Assembly: GCA_030684645.1 (NCBI GenBank)
Contig: JAUXUF010000326.1
Location: forward strand, 1 to 64,000
DNA from: Bacteroidota bacterium
Lineage (GTDB): Bacteria > Bacteroidota > Bacteroidia > Bacteroidales > Prolixibacteraceae
DNA: 64,000 bases
Reading direction: 5' to 3'
Positions 30,414 through 36,115 of this stretch are shown here, in pieces; positions within the stretch are counted from its first letter, which is position 1; each line of letters opens with the position of its first letter. A program made the position numbers and the translations under genes. Below the pieces are notes generated by a model that saw only the letters and a program-made list of their open reading frames with translations, was not told the DNA's origin and made no database searches.

Positions 30414-31193
30414 CTACGGAACAAAATTCAACCAAATTTCCCCGACCAAATGTGGTTGAGGAACAAACAGAAATTTTTTCGGGTTTTCCTCAAATTGCTG
30501 ATAAATCGATTTTCCCTCTTCAATGCCAAGTTGGGTATATCTTTCCGGGCTTTTAATTATCAACTCACAGTCCTGATAATTCGGATTTTTCTGCCATACA
30601 ATTTCTCCGGAAGGGGAAATCACAGGAAACCAGGCCAGTCCTTTGTGGGCGCGCACTCCATCATATTCAAAACCATATTCGCGGTCGCACCAGGCGCCAA
30701 ACGTGAGAGGTTGCTTTGGATCGGCACTGATGGTGGCATGTGCCCAATATGGTGGAACAATCACCACCTCACCCGGAATGGCAACCACGGCAAAGCATCG
30801 CCCCGGTTGATCTTCAGCAGTTTCCTGCATATAAATAATGGCTTTGCCCGACCATATTTCATACACTTCGGGAGTTGACCAGCCTGAAAGTGGTGAAACT
30901 TTGTGAATATGTCCCTGACTGCGAACCGGTTCATCGCCCAACCAACCGGCAGCATAGGTTACCGCGCCATACAATAAGTGAAGTTGCTTTAGTTGGTGGA
31001 GATGCTCCGATTTGCCTACATCCATGGCAATGGAATAGACCGGATCTGGCCCCTCGCACAACGGATCGCGCAAACTTTTGCGAATCGAATCGAGCAAACG
31101 ATTTTCAACTTCGGGACCAAAAACCTCCGGTCCATATTCGAAACCCATTGGTTGAGTTGTTGGTTTGATATCAAATCCGGGATTAAATTTCAT
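30414..31193 (-). CDS. Cupin-type glucose-6-phosphate isomerase, long form
   Basis: The 259-residue protein fits the archaeal-type (cupin) phosphoglucose isomerase family. Metal-binding motifs are RSQGHIHKV followed by the Glu in TPEVYEIWSG, and VVIVPPYWAHATIS for the last His. It would interconvert glucose 6-phosphate and fructose 6-phosphate, or a related sugar phosphate. It is the last gene of the minus-strand sugar operon and differs clearly from the second cupin isomerase at 36198. The next gene upstream ends only 4 bases away. Confidence 0.8.
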   Translation of the reverse strand: MKFNPGFDIKPTTQPMGFEYGPEVFGPEVENRLLDSIRKSLRDPLCEGPDPVYSIAMDVGKSEHLHQLKQLHLLYGAVTYAAGWLGDEPVRSQGHIHKVSPLSGWSTPEVYEIWSGKAIIYMQETAEDQPGRCFAVVAIPGEVVIVPPYWAHATISADPKQPLTFGAWCDREYGFEYDGVRAHKGLAWFPVISPSGEIVWQKNPNYQDCELIIKSPERYTQLGIEEGKSIYQQFEENPKKFLFVPQPHLVGEIWLNFVP

Positions 31194-31197
31194 TGTT

Positions 31198-31770
31198 TTA
31201 TTTTTGCTTTTTTCTTACATCAATTCTCGCTTGCGACATTCTTTCTCGTAAACCGCCATCTTTTAGAAATTCCTTCTCCAAAGTTTTAATCTGCCTTGCG
31301 AGTAAATAGGAAGTAATATTTATTAGTCCAATCATAACATTTGCAGAAACTTCAGAATCAGGGCTTTCAATACCTTTTTGATAGGTTTGATATTTTGCAT
31401 TTTGCTTTGTAAGCAGTTTTGTAAGATGAGGATAGTATTCATGACTTTTATCCCAAATCGGCAATTTACGAATGCGTAAAAAATCTTTATAGTCTGCTAG
31501 AAGTTCTTCGAGTGAGGCACGGGCAACGTTAGTGAGTTTAATTTCCATTTCTTTTGAAGTACCGGATGCCATGCTGCCTTCAATAATATTTTGCTTTCCT
31601 GAACGTGCAGCTTGTACCATTTGATCAATTGTTCGGTCATAAGGCTGAAAATATTTTTTGCAGAAATAATACGTACCATCAAAAATGATTTCGGCTTTTT
31701 GGTAAGTTATTAACTTCTCGTAACCGCCATGTTTTGGAATAAAACCATCAGTGTTGTATTGTTTGTCCAT
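31198..31770 (-). CDS. Four-helix-bundle protein (23S rRNA IVS-like)
   Basis: The 190-residue protein matches the four-helix-bundle family first seen in intervening sequences of 23S rRNA genes, here with the longer suffix-domain form (RTIDQMVQAARSGKQNIIEG, then ASLEELLADYKDFLRIR). No biochemical function is established. It is inserted between the mannose-6-phosphate isomerase gene and the cupin isomerase gene, 4 bases before the latter, and is preceded by an unusual short-repeat array. It does not fit the sugar operon and was probably acquired as a unit. Confidence 0.85.
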   Translation of the reverse strand: MDKQYNTDGFIPKHGGYEKLITYQKAEIIFDGTYYFCKKYFQPYDRTIDQMVQAARSGKQNIIEGSMASGTSKEMEIKLTNVARASLEELLADYKDFLRIRKLPIWDKSHEYYPHLTKLLTKQNAKYQTYQKGIESPDSEVSANVMIGLINITSYLLARQIKTLEKEFLKDGGLRERMSQARIDVRKKQK

Positions 31771-31800
31771 ATTGTGAAAGTTTATATTTTACTCAACTCC

Positions 31801-31860
31801 ATTGGACAGATTAGACAAATTAGGACAGATAAACGGTCAAACTTGTCCAACTAGTCAAAA
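31801..31860. repeat. Short GGACA/TTGTCC repeat array
   Basis: The array consists of about 10-base units: TTGGACAGA, TTAGACAAA and TTAGGACAG on one side, then the inverted ACTTGTCCA and ACTAGTCA on the other. It fills much of the 154-base gap between the mannose-6-phosphate isomerase and four-helix-bundle genes and lies just upstream of the latter. Similar arrays near four-helix-bundle genes are, as far as I recall, common in Bacteroidota. Confidence 0.55.
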
Positions 31861-31924
31861 GATACAACATTCTTGTTTATTTTCAACAAACTTAATCGAA
31901 AACAACTATACCATAAACTCGATT

Positions 31925-33733
31925 CTAAAACCTCACATATCCTTTTAACGTTCCGCATTTCTGGCCTTCGCCGGCTCCGTATGGACGAATGTTGTAGGCA
32001 CCTACTTTTGCCGGAACGATAAACACTTCGGCATAATGAACCACGAAAGGCTCAAAGGCATCTGAAGGACTTTCAACAATAACTTCATCACCTTCTACCA
32101 GGCAAATCACATGAACCCCTCCGTTGTTATGGTGTTCCACCTTTTGGGTAAACCAATGGCGACGGGTTTCTATAAACTCGCGCTCGTGCAGACCGGTGCT
32201 TTCTTCCACCCAACCATCTCCTTCAGCAACTACATGAATCCGGTTGACCAGATTTTGGCGGGTCCATTCGGTAGTGCGATCCCATTGAATATTCTTTTTC
32301 CCATGCTCAATGTTTATTGGCCGCGGTTTTCCGTCCATTCCCAAACGTCCCCAGTCCCAAAGTTTAAAAGTGAAAATATAGGGTGTGGCACTGATTTCGA
32401 GCACCATGCTGTTTTTTCCTGAACAGTGAATTGTTCCCGCCGGAATGAGCACATGATCATGCTTTTTCATCGGCCAGGTTTGCACGTGCTTTTCGGCTTC
32501 AAATGGTTTTCCTCCCGTTTGTGCTTCTTCCAGATCGGCGATCATTTCATCGGGATTGACGCCTTCTTTCAAGCCTAAGTAAACGATGGCATCGTCTTTA
32601 ACATCCATCATGTAATAGCTTTCGTCCTGAGTGTAGTGCAAGCCAAATTTTTCCTGAATGTATTCGGTTAGCGGATGAACCTGAAGGCTCAGATGGCCTC
32701 CTTCCATCGTGTCAAGGTAGTCGAACCGAATCGGAAACTCATCGCCAAAGCGCGCGTGAACCGGATCGCCAAGCAATTCGTGCGGGTGACGGAACACCAG
32801 ATTAATTGATGGAATTTCAATGACATCTTCGCCAAATTTCAGTAAAAGACTGTTTTCTTCTGGAACACAGTTGAAACACCAAGCATAATTGGGAGCCGAT
32901 TCGTCCAGATTACAAACTTCTTTCATCCACTGACCGCCCCACGGGCCCGGATCAAAAAACGGAACGACACTAAACGGACGGTTGGCAGCCAGTTCCAAAC
33001 CTTCCAAAATAGCTTTTCCTTCAACCAGTTTAGGCTGACCGATTTTATTGGTATCGAGCAGAAAATCCCATTGGTCGAACAAAGTCTTTTTCAGGCGGTC
33101 GCACACACGCCAATCCACAAAAAAGCCTTGTTTGTAAAGGAGCATCCAGTCGGCAGTATCACGGTTTTTTACACCCAGGTTATCGACCAAATGCTGGCGC
33201 ATCCGCAATTGGATTTCCCAACGTGCCATGTCGGCATAAACCAAAAGGGAAGCCTCCCCTAAATCCCCTCCCAAGGAGGGGACTTGAGGCATCAGAAAAC
33301 TTGCACCGCTACCGTATATGATGATGGTTCCTTCCTGTGTTTCAGAAATTTCTGCCTGAACGGCCTTCAGTTTTTCAGGATCAAAAAAGGCATCCATCGT
33401 CAGACGGGTCAGAAAACCAAAAATCCGGTCGTTGGTCACATCCGGGGAAACCATTTTTTTGATTTCTTCTTCAGGCAACATGAAATCCGAGGCCTGAATA
33501 AAGCGCGTATGATTTAATCCTTTCTTCAAATTGGAAATCAATTCTTCGTGAATTACCCCCTGATACGTTTCAATCACCACCAGCTTTTTCTTGCTTCCGA
33601 TGGCTGAAATTTCTTTGTTCAGCCTGGCACAAATAGCTTCCCAACCGTTCACTACTTTATACAATGAGTTATTCACCTCAACAACCGGAAGGTTATTGAA
33701 TTTCGAAGGTTTATTTAAATATTTTTTCCTCAT
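31925..33733 (-). CDS. Class I mannose-6-phosphate isomerase, extended
   Basis: The 602-residue protein combines an N-terminal kinase-like region (VIETYQGVIHEELI, IIIYGSGASFL; about residues 50-190) with a C-terminal type I phosphomannose isomerase. Metal sites are visible in HLSLQVHPLTEY and VLIPAGTIHCSGKNS. It would convert mannose 6-phosphate to fructose 6-phosphate. A 13-codon palindromic element (33252-33290) is inserted in frame near residue 155, adding PSLGGDLGEAS between GASFL and LVYADMARWEIQL. It follows the ROK gene by 14 bases on the minus strand. The N-terminal region resembles a nucleotide-kinase or uridine-kinase fold, typical of a Bacteroidota subgroup. Confidence 0.85.
   Translation of the reverse strand: MRKKYLNKPSKFNNLPVVEVNNSLYKVVNGWEAICARLNKEISAIGSKKKLVVIETYQGVIHEELISNLKKGLNHTRFIQASDFMLPEEEIKKMVSPDVTNDRIFGFLTRLTMDAFFDPEKLKAVQAEISETQEGTIIIYGSGASFLMPQVPSLGGDLGEASLLVYADMARWEIQLRMRQHLVDNLGVKNRDTADWMLLYKQGFFVDWRVCDRLKKTLFDQWDFLLDTNKIGQPKLVEGKAILEGLELAANRPFSVVPFFDPGPWGGQWMKEVCNLDESAPNYAWCFNCVPEENSLLLKFGEDVIEIPSINLVFRHPHELLGDPVHARFGDEFPIRFDYLDTMEGGHLSLQVHPLTEYIQEKFGLHYTQDESYYMMDVKDDAIVYLGLKEGVNPDEMIADLEEAQTGGKPFEAEKHVQTWPMKKHDHVLIPAGTIHCSGKNSMVLEISATPYIFTFKLWDWGRLGMDGKPRPINIEHGKKNIQWDRTTEWTRQNLVNRIHVVAEGDGWVEESTGLHEREFIETRRHWFTQKVEHHNNGGVHVICLVEGDEVIVESPSDAFEPFVVHYAEVFIVPAKVGAYNIRPYGAGEGQKCGTLKGYVRF
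33252..33290. repeat. Palindromic element inserted in frame in the PMI gene
   Basis: The 39-bp element has terminal inverted GCCTC/GAGGC and an inner CCCCTCC/GGAGGGG palindrome. It is exactly 13 codons and is read through as part of the mannose-6-phosphate isomerase. Its sequence closely matches the element at 34688 in the neighbouring ROK gene. Confidence 0.75.
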
Positions 33734-33747
33734 TTATCTATCTTTTA

Positions 33748-34749
33748 TCACTTATTTATCGAAGATCGCACCAGATAATCAGCGCCATACAGGGCTGCCG
33801 AATCGGGAAATTTAGCTTCAACCAGCTTTACTTTTCCCCAAGGCATCCATGCCAAATTATTTACTTTTTCCTGAAGCGCAGGCAGAATCACCGAAGAACT
33901 TTTCATGATTCCTCCACTCAAAATGATCAGTTCGGGATCGAAAGCATGAATCATGGTGATGATTCCTGCAGCCCAAACAGAAAGACAATGGTCCAACACT
34001 TCTTTGGCGACACGATCATTATTTCCGGCATGATGGAAAAGTGCCCTGAAATCCAGAACTTCTTCGTTTTTCATCAAACTTTCTGAAAACTCCGGGTGCT
34101 CTTTCAGCAAAGTTGGCAAACGCCAGGTAGATGCTTCGGCTTCCACACAGCCAATATTTCCACAGGTACAGGCAGATCCTTTGTGGTTCACCACGAAATG
34201 TCCGCCCAGGTTTCCGGCCTGAAAATGTTTTCCGATCAGTAATTCCCCGCCGATCAAAACCGCCGAACCGATGCCGGTGCCCAAAGTAACCATCACTAAG
34301 TCGGAGCAACCTTTTCCGGCACCATGCTGCCATTCTCCCAACAAAGCCATTCGGGCATCATTCATCGCAAAAAGCGGCCAGTTCCATTTTTCCATGGCCC
34401 AGCCAACCAGATCGGTATCCGGTCCGTCGTCGTATTTCTGATTTGTAGAAAGAATCCGGTTTTTCGATGAATCAACTAGTCCGGCAAACGAAAAGCCAAT
34501 GCCCAATACCTCAGTTACAGAAAGTTGATTGGATTTTAGCATTTGATTTATGGCCATTTCCAATTCCGGAAGCTGGGCTTTCAGACCGGAAGCCGATTGT
34601 GCAATGATTTCAGTCCGGTCAACGAGCTGACCTTCTTTCAACAGACCAATTTTGATAATCGTTCCGCCCAAATCGATGGCAATGACGGCCTCCCCCCAAC
34701 CCCCTCCTAAGGAGGGGGAGAAAGAACTGGTATGCGATTGTTTTTTCAT
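33748..34749 (-). CDS. ROK-family sugar kinase
   Basis: The 333-residue cytoplasmic kinase has the ROK phosphate-binding segment AIDLGGTIIKIGLL, the second ATP loop VTLGTGIGSAVLIGG, and the ROK zinc motif CTCGNIGCVE with the preceding catalytic-site His region. It would phosphorylate glucose or mannose. In operon with mannose-6-phosphate isomerase 14 bases downstream and a sugar importer upstream, mannose or glucose is likely. The first 23 residues (through SPSLGGGWGEA) come from a palindromic element and are not part of the normal fold; the conserved domain begins at VIAIDLGG. Confidence 0.9.
   Translation of the reverse strand: MKKQSHTSSFSPSLGGGWGEAVIAIDLGGTIIKIGLLKEGQLVDRTEIIAQSASGLKAQLPELEMAINQMLKSNQLSVTEVLGIGFSFAGLVDSSKNRILSTNQKYDDGPDTDLVGWAMEKWNWPLFAMNDARMALLGEWQHGAGKGCSDLVMVTLGTGIGSAVLIGGELLIGKHFQAGNLGGHFVVNHKGSACTCGNIGCVEAEASTWRLPTLLKEHPEFSESLMKNEEVLDFRALFHHAGNNDRVAKEVLDHCLSVWAAGIITMIHAFDPELIILSGGIMKSSSVILPALQEKVNNLAWMPWGKVKLVEAKFPDSAALYGADYLVRSSINK
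34688..34720. repeat. Palindromic element in the 5' end of the ROK gene
   Basis: The 33-bp element starts GCCTCCCCCCAA and contains the inner palindrome CCCCCTCC/GGAGGGGG. Read on the minus strand it encodes SPSLGGGWGEA at the N-terminus of the ROK kinase. It is the same family and orientation as the element at 33252. Confidence 0.75.
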
Positions 34750-34751
34750 TT

Positions 34752-34782
34752 TAATATTTTGGATATTGGATATTCAATATTT
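34752..34782. repeat. GATATTGGATATT short repeat
   Basis: Between the MFS and ROK genes the sequence repeats GGATATT twice and ends in an inverted AATATT pair (AATATT ... AATATT around TGGATATTC). It is one of several simple repeat types filling intergenic gaps of this operon. Confidence 0.4.
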
Positions 34783-34789
34783 CTTATTT

Positions 34790-36115
34790 CTACTTTTTAG
34801 CAAATTCTTTCTCCAGTTCTTCCAGCGTTTTCCCTTTGGTTTCAGGAACATATTTCAACACGTACAGCAAATTTGCCAGACATATCAGCGAAAAAATCAG
34901 GAAAGTAATTCCTCCGCTCAACCTTTCGAGCATAATGGGGAATGCAATGGTTACAATGGCGCAGGCAATCCAAAGCGACACAATGGCAATCGACATTCCC
35001 TTGCTGCGCAGCCGGTTCGGGAACAGTTCGGCAGCCACCACCCAAACTGCAGGACCCAAAGAGGCGGCAAAAAAAGCAATGTACCCGAGGATAAATACAA
35101 GCACTAATACTCCTGAGGTTTGATTTGTGAAGAACAAAACGGAGAGTCCGGCAAGCATCAATGTCATTCCCATGGATCCAATAATGATCAACAGTTTGCG
35201 ACCAAAACGATCGATCAGAACCATGGCAACCAAGGTAAAAACCAGATTAGTTCCACCGATCAGAATGGTTTGCAACAGCGCTGAATCGTTCGACTGGCCC
35301 ACATTGGCAAATATTTTGGGCGCGTAATACATGATGGTATTGATTCCGGTAATCTGCTGAAATACGGCCAGAATGATCCCGATAAACAGAAGTGGTTTGA
35401 TTTTCGGAGTCAGCAAATCGCTGAACTTTGATTCTTCATGAACCGTCAATGTTTCCCCGATTTCTTTTAATTCGGCAAGTGCAGATTCTTTTCCTGAAGT
35501 TTTCAGCAATACCTTGAGCGCTTCATCATTCCGGTTTCGGGCAGCCAGCCAGCGCGGACTTTCAGGAACCAGAAACAAACTGAAGAACAACAATATCGCG
35601 GGGGCTGCCATTACCAGCAACATCCAGCGCCAATTGTTTTCGCCTGTTCCAACCAGTAAATAATTGCTGAAAAAAGCTACCAGAATACCAATTACAATGG
35701 CCAGTTGGTTCAAAGAAACCAATGTTCCTCGGTATTTGGCCGGTGCAAGTTCCGCAATGTACATGGGCGAAAGAATGGATGCCACCCCAACTGCCAGTCC
35801 ACCCAGGATGCGCGCAACAAGGAAGAATATCAGCGAATGAGCCGTAGCGCTTCCTACCGCTGAAATAAAAAACAACAGAGCAGCCAGCATCAGCACTTTT
35901 TTACGCCCGTAGTGGTCACCTGCTTTTCCGGCCAGCATAACACCGGCTATACAGCCGAAGAGCAAACTGCTGACGGTCCAGCCCAATCCAGCTTCGGATA
36001 AACCAAAATACGGCTGAATAAAATTGATGGTACCGGAAATAACCGCAGTGTCGAAACCGAACAAAAGCCCACCCAGCGCAGCGACAACAGATATGAGAAT
36101 GACGTATGATTTCAT
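34790..36115 (-). CDS. Sugar-porter MFS transporter
   Basis: The 441-residue inner-membrane protein has 12 predicted membrane helices and sugar-porter signatures: GFDTAVISG in helix 1, DHYGRKKV after helix 2, VPESPRWLAARNR before the central loop, QQITGINTIMYYAP in helix 7, DRFGRKLL and PETKGKTLEELE at the end. It resembles XylE/GLUT-type proton-coupled importers of hexoses or pentoses. Its place between the glycosidase/isomerase pair and the ROK kinase suggests it brings in the monosaccharide made in the periplasm. Confidence 0.93.
   Translation of the reverse strand: MKSYVILISVVAALGGLLFGFDTAVISGTINFIQPYFGLSEAGLGWTVSSLLFGCIAGVMLAGKAGDHYGRKKVLMLAALLFFISAVGSATAHSLIFFLVARILGGLAVGVASILSPMYIAELAPAKYRGTLVSLNQLAIVIGILVAFFSNYLLVGTGENNWRWMLLVMAAPAILLFFSLFLVPESPRWLAARNRNDEALKVLLKTSGKESALAELKEIGETLTVHEESKFSDLLTPKIKPLLFIGIILAVFQQITGINTIMYYAPKIFANVGQSNDSALLQTILIGGTNLVFTLVAMVLIDRFGRKLLIIIGSMGMTLMLAGLSVLFFTNQTSGVLVLVFILGYIAFFAASLGPAVWVVAAELFPNRLRSKGMSIAIVSLWIACAIVTIAFPIMLERLSGGITFLIFSLICLANLLYVLKYVPETKGKTLEELEKEFAKK

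Follow-up and report, generated by a model that had tools for sequence, protein, structure and literature searches.

How does a palindromic DNA repeat come to lie in frame within an enzyme gene, and what kind of element does it belong to? The question arose from a first-pass annotation of the window (the whole stretch of DNA analyzed here, 64,000 nucleotides of a Prolixibacteraceae contig), which described a 39-bp palindromic repeat with terminal inverted GCCTC/GAGGC in a gene for mannose-6-phosphate isomerase. The identity of the host gene (Table 1) was confirmed by a profile of its 602-aa ORF, which found the B. subtilis mannose-6-phosphate isomerase 1qwr (E of 1.2e-10), and by a fold match to the isomerase (E of 1.1e-23), both of which placed the isomerase part in the C-terminal region of the ORF. 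Searches of the ORF against Pfam and NCBIfam gave no match at an E of ≤0.001.

Positions 33252-33290, the 39 bases in question, are in frame within the minus-strand ORF and encode VPSLGGDLGEAS; the palindrome is real, with a core of CCCCTCC-TTG-GGAGGGG followed by ATTTAGGGGAGGC. The net unit is nevertheless shorter than first described. In a codon alignment, this isomerase has 13 codons (QVPSLGGDLGEAS) where the empty genes have 3 (e.g., EPD), a net gain of 10 codons, or 30 bp, whose exact junctions vary with the alignment. As to the terminal repeat, the right end held up, being the element tail GGGGAGGC, but the left GCCTC falls in host codons (ATG CCT CAA) that read differently in most of the other occupied species, and it is therefore not an element end. 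As single-stranded DNA, the 51-nt stretch at 33244-33294 folded at -13.2 kcal/mol (z of -2.64; 2 of 200 shuffles were as good). In the AlphaFold model of the host protein (mean pLDDT of 91), the insert was modeled as a low-confidence loop (block pLDDT of 58) ahead of a strand.

Table 1. Features of the isomerase gene, its neighbor, and their inserts in the window
Feature	Positions	Strand	Remarks
Mannose-6-phosphate isomerase-like host gene	31925..33733	-	602 aa, additional N-terminal domain
Net insert, 30 bp, TCCCCTCC TTG GGAGGGG ATTTA GGGGAGG	33253..33282	-	Without counterpart in empty orthologues
Palindromic element core, 8-bp stem and 3-base loop	33264..33282	.	Folding
Element tail GGGGAGGC, the outer end	33252..33259	-	Shared by collected copies, themselves picked for a GGGAGG tail
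GCCTC, host codons (earlier called terminal repeat)	33286..33290	-	Alignment with occupied and empty orthologues
ROK family (glucokinase-like) gene, 333 aa, host of the second copy	33748..34749	-	PF00480, E of 2e-53
Second copy, 45-bp (15-codon) in-frame insert near the ROK gene start, between ...SHT and IAIDLGGT	34684..34728	-	

We then compared the isomerase (manA) site among orthologues. Alignment of 80 named loci bore out the claim that a repeated palindrome had entered the frame without stopping it: 64 loci were empty (a stretch of 22 to 23 residues), 8 were occupied, and 8 were not cleanly parsed, 4 of which appear empty by eye. Once further genomes were included, the site was occupied in 12 species (12 distinct sequences), patchily on the tree, with net inserts in the other species of +24, +27, +30, +36, or +45 bp, the longest being that of L174. 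The loop of the L174 insert, like that of the L068 insert, contains another palindrome (TCCCGAATAATCGGGA), nested in frame and unrelated to the first. The nearest named relatives of the source genome are Prolixibacteraceae/Bacteroidota metagenome-assembled genomes. In isomerase trees computed without the insert, ten occupied species clustered together (split support of 100 in the smaller set; own node below 80 in the larger set). Beyond this close clade, the insert was found only in L179 and L180 (84% and 83% identity) among the loci examined, so that sharing of its residues by distant genera, which the annotation had named as evidence against its reading, was not seen there. Both share a 97% clade with the empty L181 and L183, L181 being the sister of L179. 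The L179 and L181 genes have an identity of 0.88 to 0.93 in their first 330 nt, falling to 0.69 beside the insertion site; this pattern makes local recombination between them likely and suggests a recent exchange between species.

The insert is conserved at the DNA level. In nine sequences, synonymous identity within the insert reached 0.80 (191/239); the mean over 576 overlapping windows of the alignment was 0.56, and 1 of them was as high. Without the degenerate L179, the value rose to 0.84, which none of the 576 reached (L180 was shifted by one codon in the realignment made for this test). The insert occurs as two subtypes, GTCCCCTCC..GGAGGGGATTTAGGGG and TCCCCCTCC..GGAGGGGGTTGGGGGG, which alternate within a 93% clade, L171 and L173 carrying one and L251 and L252 the other. 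Among the occupied manA-site sequences the loop codon varies (L, F, H, or T) and the DNA stem is kept. For the inner seven stem pairs, 74 of the 77 cells across 11 aligned species are paired, L174 being excluded because of the second palindrome in its loop; covariation in these sequences was a weak signal (4 cells changed on both sides; 53 of 500 shuffles were as high), and the seed alignment is uninformative on this point, since its copies had been chosen by their stem. The synonymous conservation together with the freely changing loop codon points to maintenance of the insert by DNA-level copying rather than by use of the peptide, with allelic exchange as an alternative. Conversion from other copies and allelic exchange between species would both fit the conservation and the switching of subtypes.

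A second copy lies in the window near the start of the adjacent ROK kinase gene (Table 1). An insert at this site was present in the source genome, L171, L176, and L252, and the site was empty in L172, L173, L174, L177, L178, L184, L185, and L256; in 8 further loci the gene start was not located by motif. No target duplication was visible at the one junction compared by eye. The first-pass annotation had missed this copy in the adjacent gene, as well as the nuclease-bearing form found elsewhere in the genome.

The two inserts belong to a REP-like family with the core CCCCTCC-N3-GGAGGGG and a tail ending in GGGGAGGC, present in about 90 copies in the source genome (5.2 Mb, 408 contigs). The CCCTCC-N1-7-GGAGGG palindrome occurred at 45 places in this genome, compared with 1 for a reversed control pattern, and a covariance model trained on 34 of its own copies gave at least 89 matches at an E of ≤0.1 (150 of 709 candidates scored). 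The four other genomes of the same genus that were searched held 58, 46, 36, and 2 family matches, and 8 of the 20 family-level genomes searched had any match to the model at an E of ≤0.001. Contamination as the source of the repeat was rejected, three same-genus genomes with 1% contamination holding 36 to 58 matches. The tail was GGGAGGC in 36 of 41 collected copies and another G-rich sequence in 5, the copies having been selected for a tail of GGGAGG; opposite the tail, inspection by eye showed no constant GTAG or CGTC in these copies. A search of Rfam with 31000-36000 gave no match.

Many family copies lie in open frames. The reading-frame and edge counts cover 85 of the 89 matches, no stretch having been assigned to the other 4; of these 85 placed copies, 47 lie within an open frame of at least 90 aa, spurious frames included. 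Where copies are internal and in frame in unrelated genes, the frame stays open with the element in either orientation. Further in-frame copies lie within codons 1 to 25 of a biotin carboxylase gene and two UPF0004/radical-SAM genes (L149, 10342-12441 and 16400-17788; L159, 314-1678). For 50 intergenic copies, distances to called gene edges were compared for the two ends, with simple ORFs as gene calls: where a gene lay on the side in question, its edge was no more than 12 nt from the tail end in 28 of 47 copies and from the hairpin side in 0 of 48. Adjoining the isomerase gene in the window, the stretch at 31198-31770 (minus strand) weakly matches the four-helix protein family of 23S rRNA intervening sequences, under the curated cutoff. 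Such genes (23S_rRNA_IVP) were tried as a partner of the element and dropped, element-like repeats occurring in 2 of 9 loci, some 0.7 and 1.3 kb away from the match.

We scanned 10 open frames that hold family copies for further domains and found in-frame units of DUF559, a Vsr-like PD-(D/E)XK domain (PMC12907096). In the source genome's isoleucyl-tRNA synthetase (IleS; L166, contig 369), a DUF559 domain lies in frame between two inverted family copies (model E of 1.9e-6 and 0.0098, the first of them also in the training set). In a valyl-tRNA synthetase (ValS; L007), a DUF559 domain has ends of a sister palindrome type, and a family solo, i.e., a single end, lies elsewhere in the same protein. 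The source genome has four DUF559 matches, one of them partial. Over the seven genomes having both, at least 4 family matches lay within 200 nt of DUF559, compared with 0.06 expected; with the source genome excluded, since its copies had trained the model, there were at least 2, compared with 0.03 expected. No intein domain was found by Pfam in the scanned fused proteins, and the frame runs through. The PADLOC homing-endonuclease model matched the IleS DUF559 (E of 8.4e-7) and a free copy (1.8e-4), and the ValS DUF559 was not among its matches at 0.01.

The units and solos keep open frames inside essential genes, and a single valS site displays its alternative states in related genomes. At KYxIE|FVTIATTRPET in eight genomes, no insert is present in G058, G056, and G026, and a full DUF559 unit is present in G000, G018, and G035; the other two genomes have remnants, G002 with both ends but without DUF559 and G047 with a solo 3' end that by eye equals, base for base, the 3' end of the G018 unit. 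The ends of the two-ended remnant and of the full units are similar, not identical. The IleS site HYPF|FPADF is full in G000, G002, and G026 and empty in G058, G035, G056, and G047; no second ileS over the cutoff was found in these seven genomes, and G018, the eighth searched, had no ileS match over the cutoff. Six genomes have a solo at another ValS site, which is different in G058 (G056 was unmatched by the pattern), and one site in a type ISP restriction enzyme has a solo in G000 and a full unit with another palindrome type in G035. Three pairs of valS units, compared together with a few host codons on their flanks, gave a dN of 0.09 to 0.11 and a dS of 0.70 to 1.10; the IleS unit pairs were near saturation (dN, 0.22 to 0.36; dS, 1.7, 2.6, or undefined).

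DUF559 was found in 61 of the 118 Bacteroidota genomes searched, and 20 of 106 matches at an E of ≤1e-10 lay within open frames of at least 400 aa. By Pfam and NCBIfam, the hosts included LeuS (L323, L325, and L346, and another site in L343), MetH (L334 and L339), and restriction-modification genes (HsdM, L331; HsdR, L326; Eco57I type, L347; MmeI-like, L324). The units in LeuS (L323, L325, and L346) and in ValS (L259, L267, and L278) both lie just ahead of a TTRP(D/E)T motif, although the enzymes differ.

We next determined whether palindromes accompany these domains generally, using sets taken best first rather than at random (29 of 40 family-level matches and 29 of the strongest phylum-level matches) and omitting L275 (masked bases) and partial DUF559 matches. 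Hairpins with a stem of at least 7 flanked DUF559 on both sides at 11/29 family-level and 13/29 phylum-level loci, compared with 22/711 control places; a stem of at least 8 on at least one side was present at 13/29 and 22/29, respectively, compared with 64/711. An inverted-repeat test (12 or more identical bases) was positive at 9 of 29 DUF559 loci and 2 of 424 controls. Several results count against reading domain and palindromes as one unit. All six IleS/ValS units put to the inverted-repeat test, each with two differing ends, were negative; G047 has 36 family matches without DUF559; and, with five near-identical or same-site loci left out, DUF559 similarity was only weakly correlated with flank similarity (rho of 0.09; 7 of 500 permutations were as high). 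Across 20 genomes, DUF559 counts did not track family-match counts.

On balance, we consider it probable that the isomerase insert belongs, as a nonautonomous solo, to a mobile element that in its autonomous form consists of a DUF559 endonuclease gene between two inverted REP-like palindromes, tails outward. We infer that the DUF559 nuclease would cut DNA at, or close to, target sites or palindromes and that repair would copy the element in, by homing or ectopic conversion, the host protein carrying the extra loop or domain along; remnants and solos would be deletion derivatives of the full unit. Homing or conversion would account for the identical sites, the patchy presence, the excess DNA conservation, and the subtype switching, and the combination of fixed sites, empty alleles, and patchy presence fits homing. 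The open frames of the ends, and their position in loops, may explain why insertion within genes is tolerated. Counting against this reading, the manA site itself yielded no DUF559 unit. Since the valS ends are of a sister palindrome type outside the 89 model matches, the allelic series supports the architecture, not the exact family of the isomerase insert.

The nearest competitor is that a Y1 (RAYT/TnpA_REP) transposase moves the insert as an ordinary REP, with DUF559 as a passenger. Bacteroidetes RAYTs with atypical REPs have been published (PMC6006769), and the source genome has 11 Y1_Tnp matches (L056-L066). By eye, no isomerase-type element was seen in the 250 nt upstream or the 300 nt downstream of any of these 11, and a profile run over 2 to 3 kb around them found element copies beside one only, about 2 kb away; DUF559, in contrast, is flanked by family copies. 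Lacking the flanking element at all 11 matches in this genome, the Y1 transposases were rejected as the mover, and we regard this explanation as unlikely. Most of the 11 matches lie, by eye, near other palindromes of their own, i.e., there are several parallel REP systems in one genome. It is also rather improbable that DUF559 genes are targets or cargo, with palindromes that attract nuclease insertions and themselves move by another route: many different palindromes do accompany DUF559 genes, but full units, a two-ended remnant, and solos at the same host sites are better explained by one unit and its deletion derivatives.

Two further explanations concern the insert rather than its mover. 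Its retention in 12 species would suit a loop domesticated for use by the isomerase; the change of the loop codon with the stem kept, the conservation of synonymous sites, the low confidence of the loop in the structure model, and its absence from L181, the sister of an occupied locus, all make this very improbable. A regulatory hairpin acting at the DNA or RNA level, with its coding position incidental, would explain why the stem is conserved at the manA site and why many family copies lie at gene edges. That it hardly seems credible follows from the internal in-frame copies in unrelated genes, open in both element orientations, and from the Rfam result.

The mobile solo that we favor resembles several known systems without coinciding with any of them. 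The first-pass annotation likened it to the in-frame palindromic elements of Rickettsia, and the likeness stands for placement: Rickettsia RPEs and Wolbachia WPEs are palindromes that entered existing genes in frame, orthologues carrying them at the same position (PMC3767692), and the isomerase insert too lies in frame in a preexisting gene whose orthologues outside the group are without it. RPEs, however, are rickettsial and 100 to 150 bp long (one is tabulated at 84) (PMC3767692), whereas the isomerase and ROK inserts measure 30 to 45 bp, occur in Prolixibacteraceae, and have a nuclease-bearing form; the comparison is an analogy, not family membership. GTAG/CGTC REPs are described as short, high-copy repeats, single or paired, near ORF ends and in part intragenic, including in tRNA synthetases, and RPE-4 and RPE-6 have been counted as CGTC repeats (PMC3733652). 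The family in the source genome likewise is a palindrome of 20 to 40 bp in many copies, but its end is of the GGGGAGGC type, it flanks no RAYT of its own genome, and its linked gene is DUF559.

The homing endonuclease families named in one account include PD-(D/E)XK and EDxHD (PMC3943268). The DUF559 ORFs share with homing endonucleases their fixed sites in conserved genes, with empty alleles, and differ in that the units have no Pfam intein domain, the frame is continuous, and the palindromic ends also occur as solos. EDxHD enzymes resemble Vsr. VsrA of Caulobacter has the same DUF559/Vsr-like domain of the PD-(D/E)XK superfamily but is a predicted mismatch-repair endonuclease with a functional link to cytosine methylation (PMC12907096). 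As in MITEs, short copies share inverted ends with a gene-bearing form (the valS remnant and full units); unlike MITEs, the element has no transposase, left no target duplication at the ROK site (by eye), and occurs as single ends.

Intragenic REPs and in-frame RPEs are already known (PMC3733652, PMC3767692), and what would be new here is the partnership with DUF559 and the translated units in essential genes. No DUF559-palindrome partnership was found in the open-access literature among the matches listed, judged by title and start of the abstract, and an open-access literature search with the sequence letters of the element returned unrelated papers only. Whether the partnership extends to Bacteroidota-wide translated mobile elements, in which palindrome-bounded Vsr-like DUF559 units would home into essential genes (IleS, ValS, LeuS, and MetH), remain as an unspliced extra domain, and seed in-frame solos such as the isomerase insert, appears to us an evenly balanced matter.

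REP-like palindromes are known with RAYT transposases. The link to DUF559 would provide a testable mover for REP-like families without a RAYT and would give this domain of unknown function a new role. It would also offer a route by which essential enzymes gain loops and domains from mobile DNA with no splicing involved, and it cautions annotators that in-frame loops and domains of this kind may represent mobile DNA rather than parts of the enzyme family.
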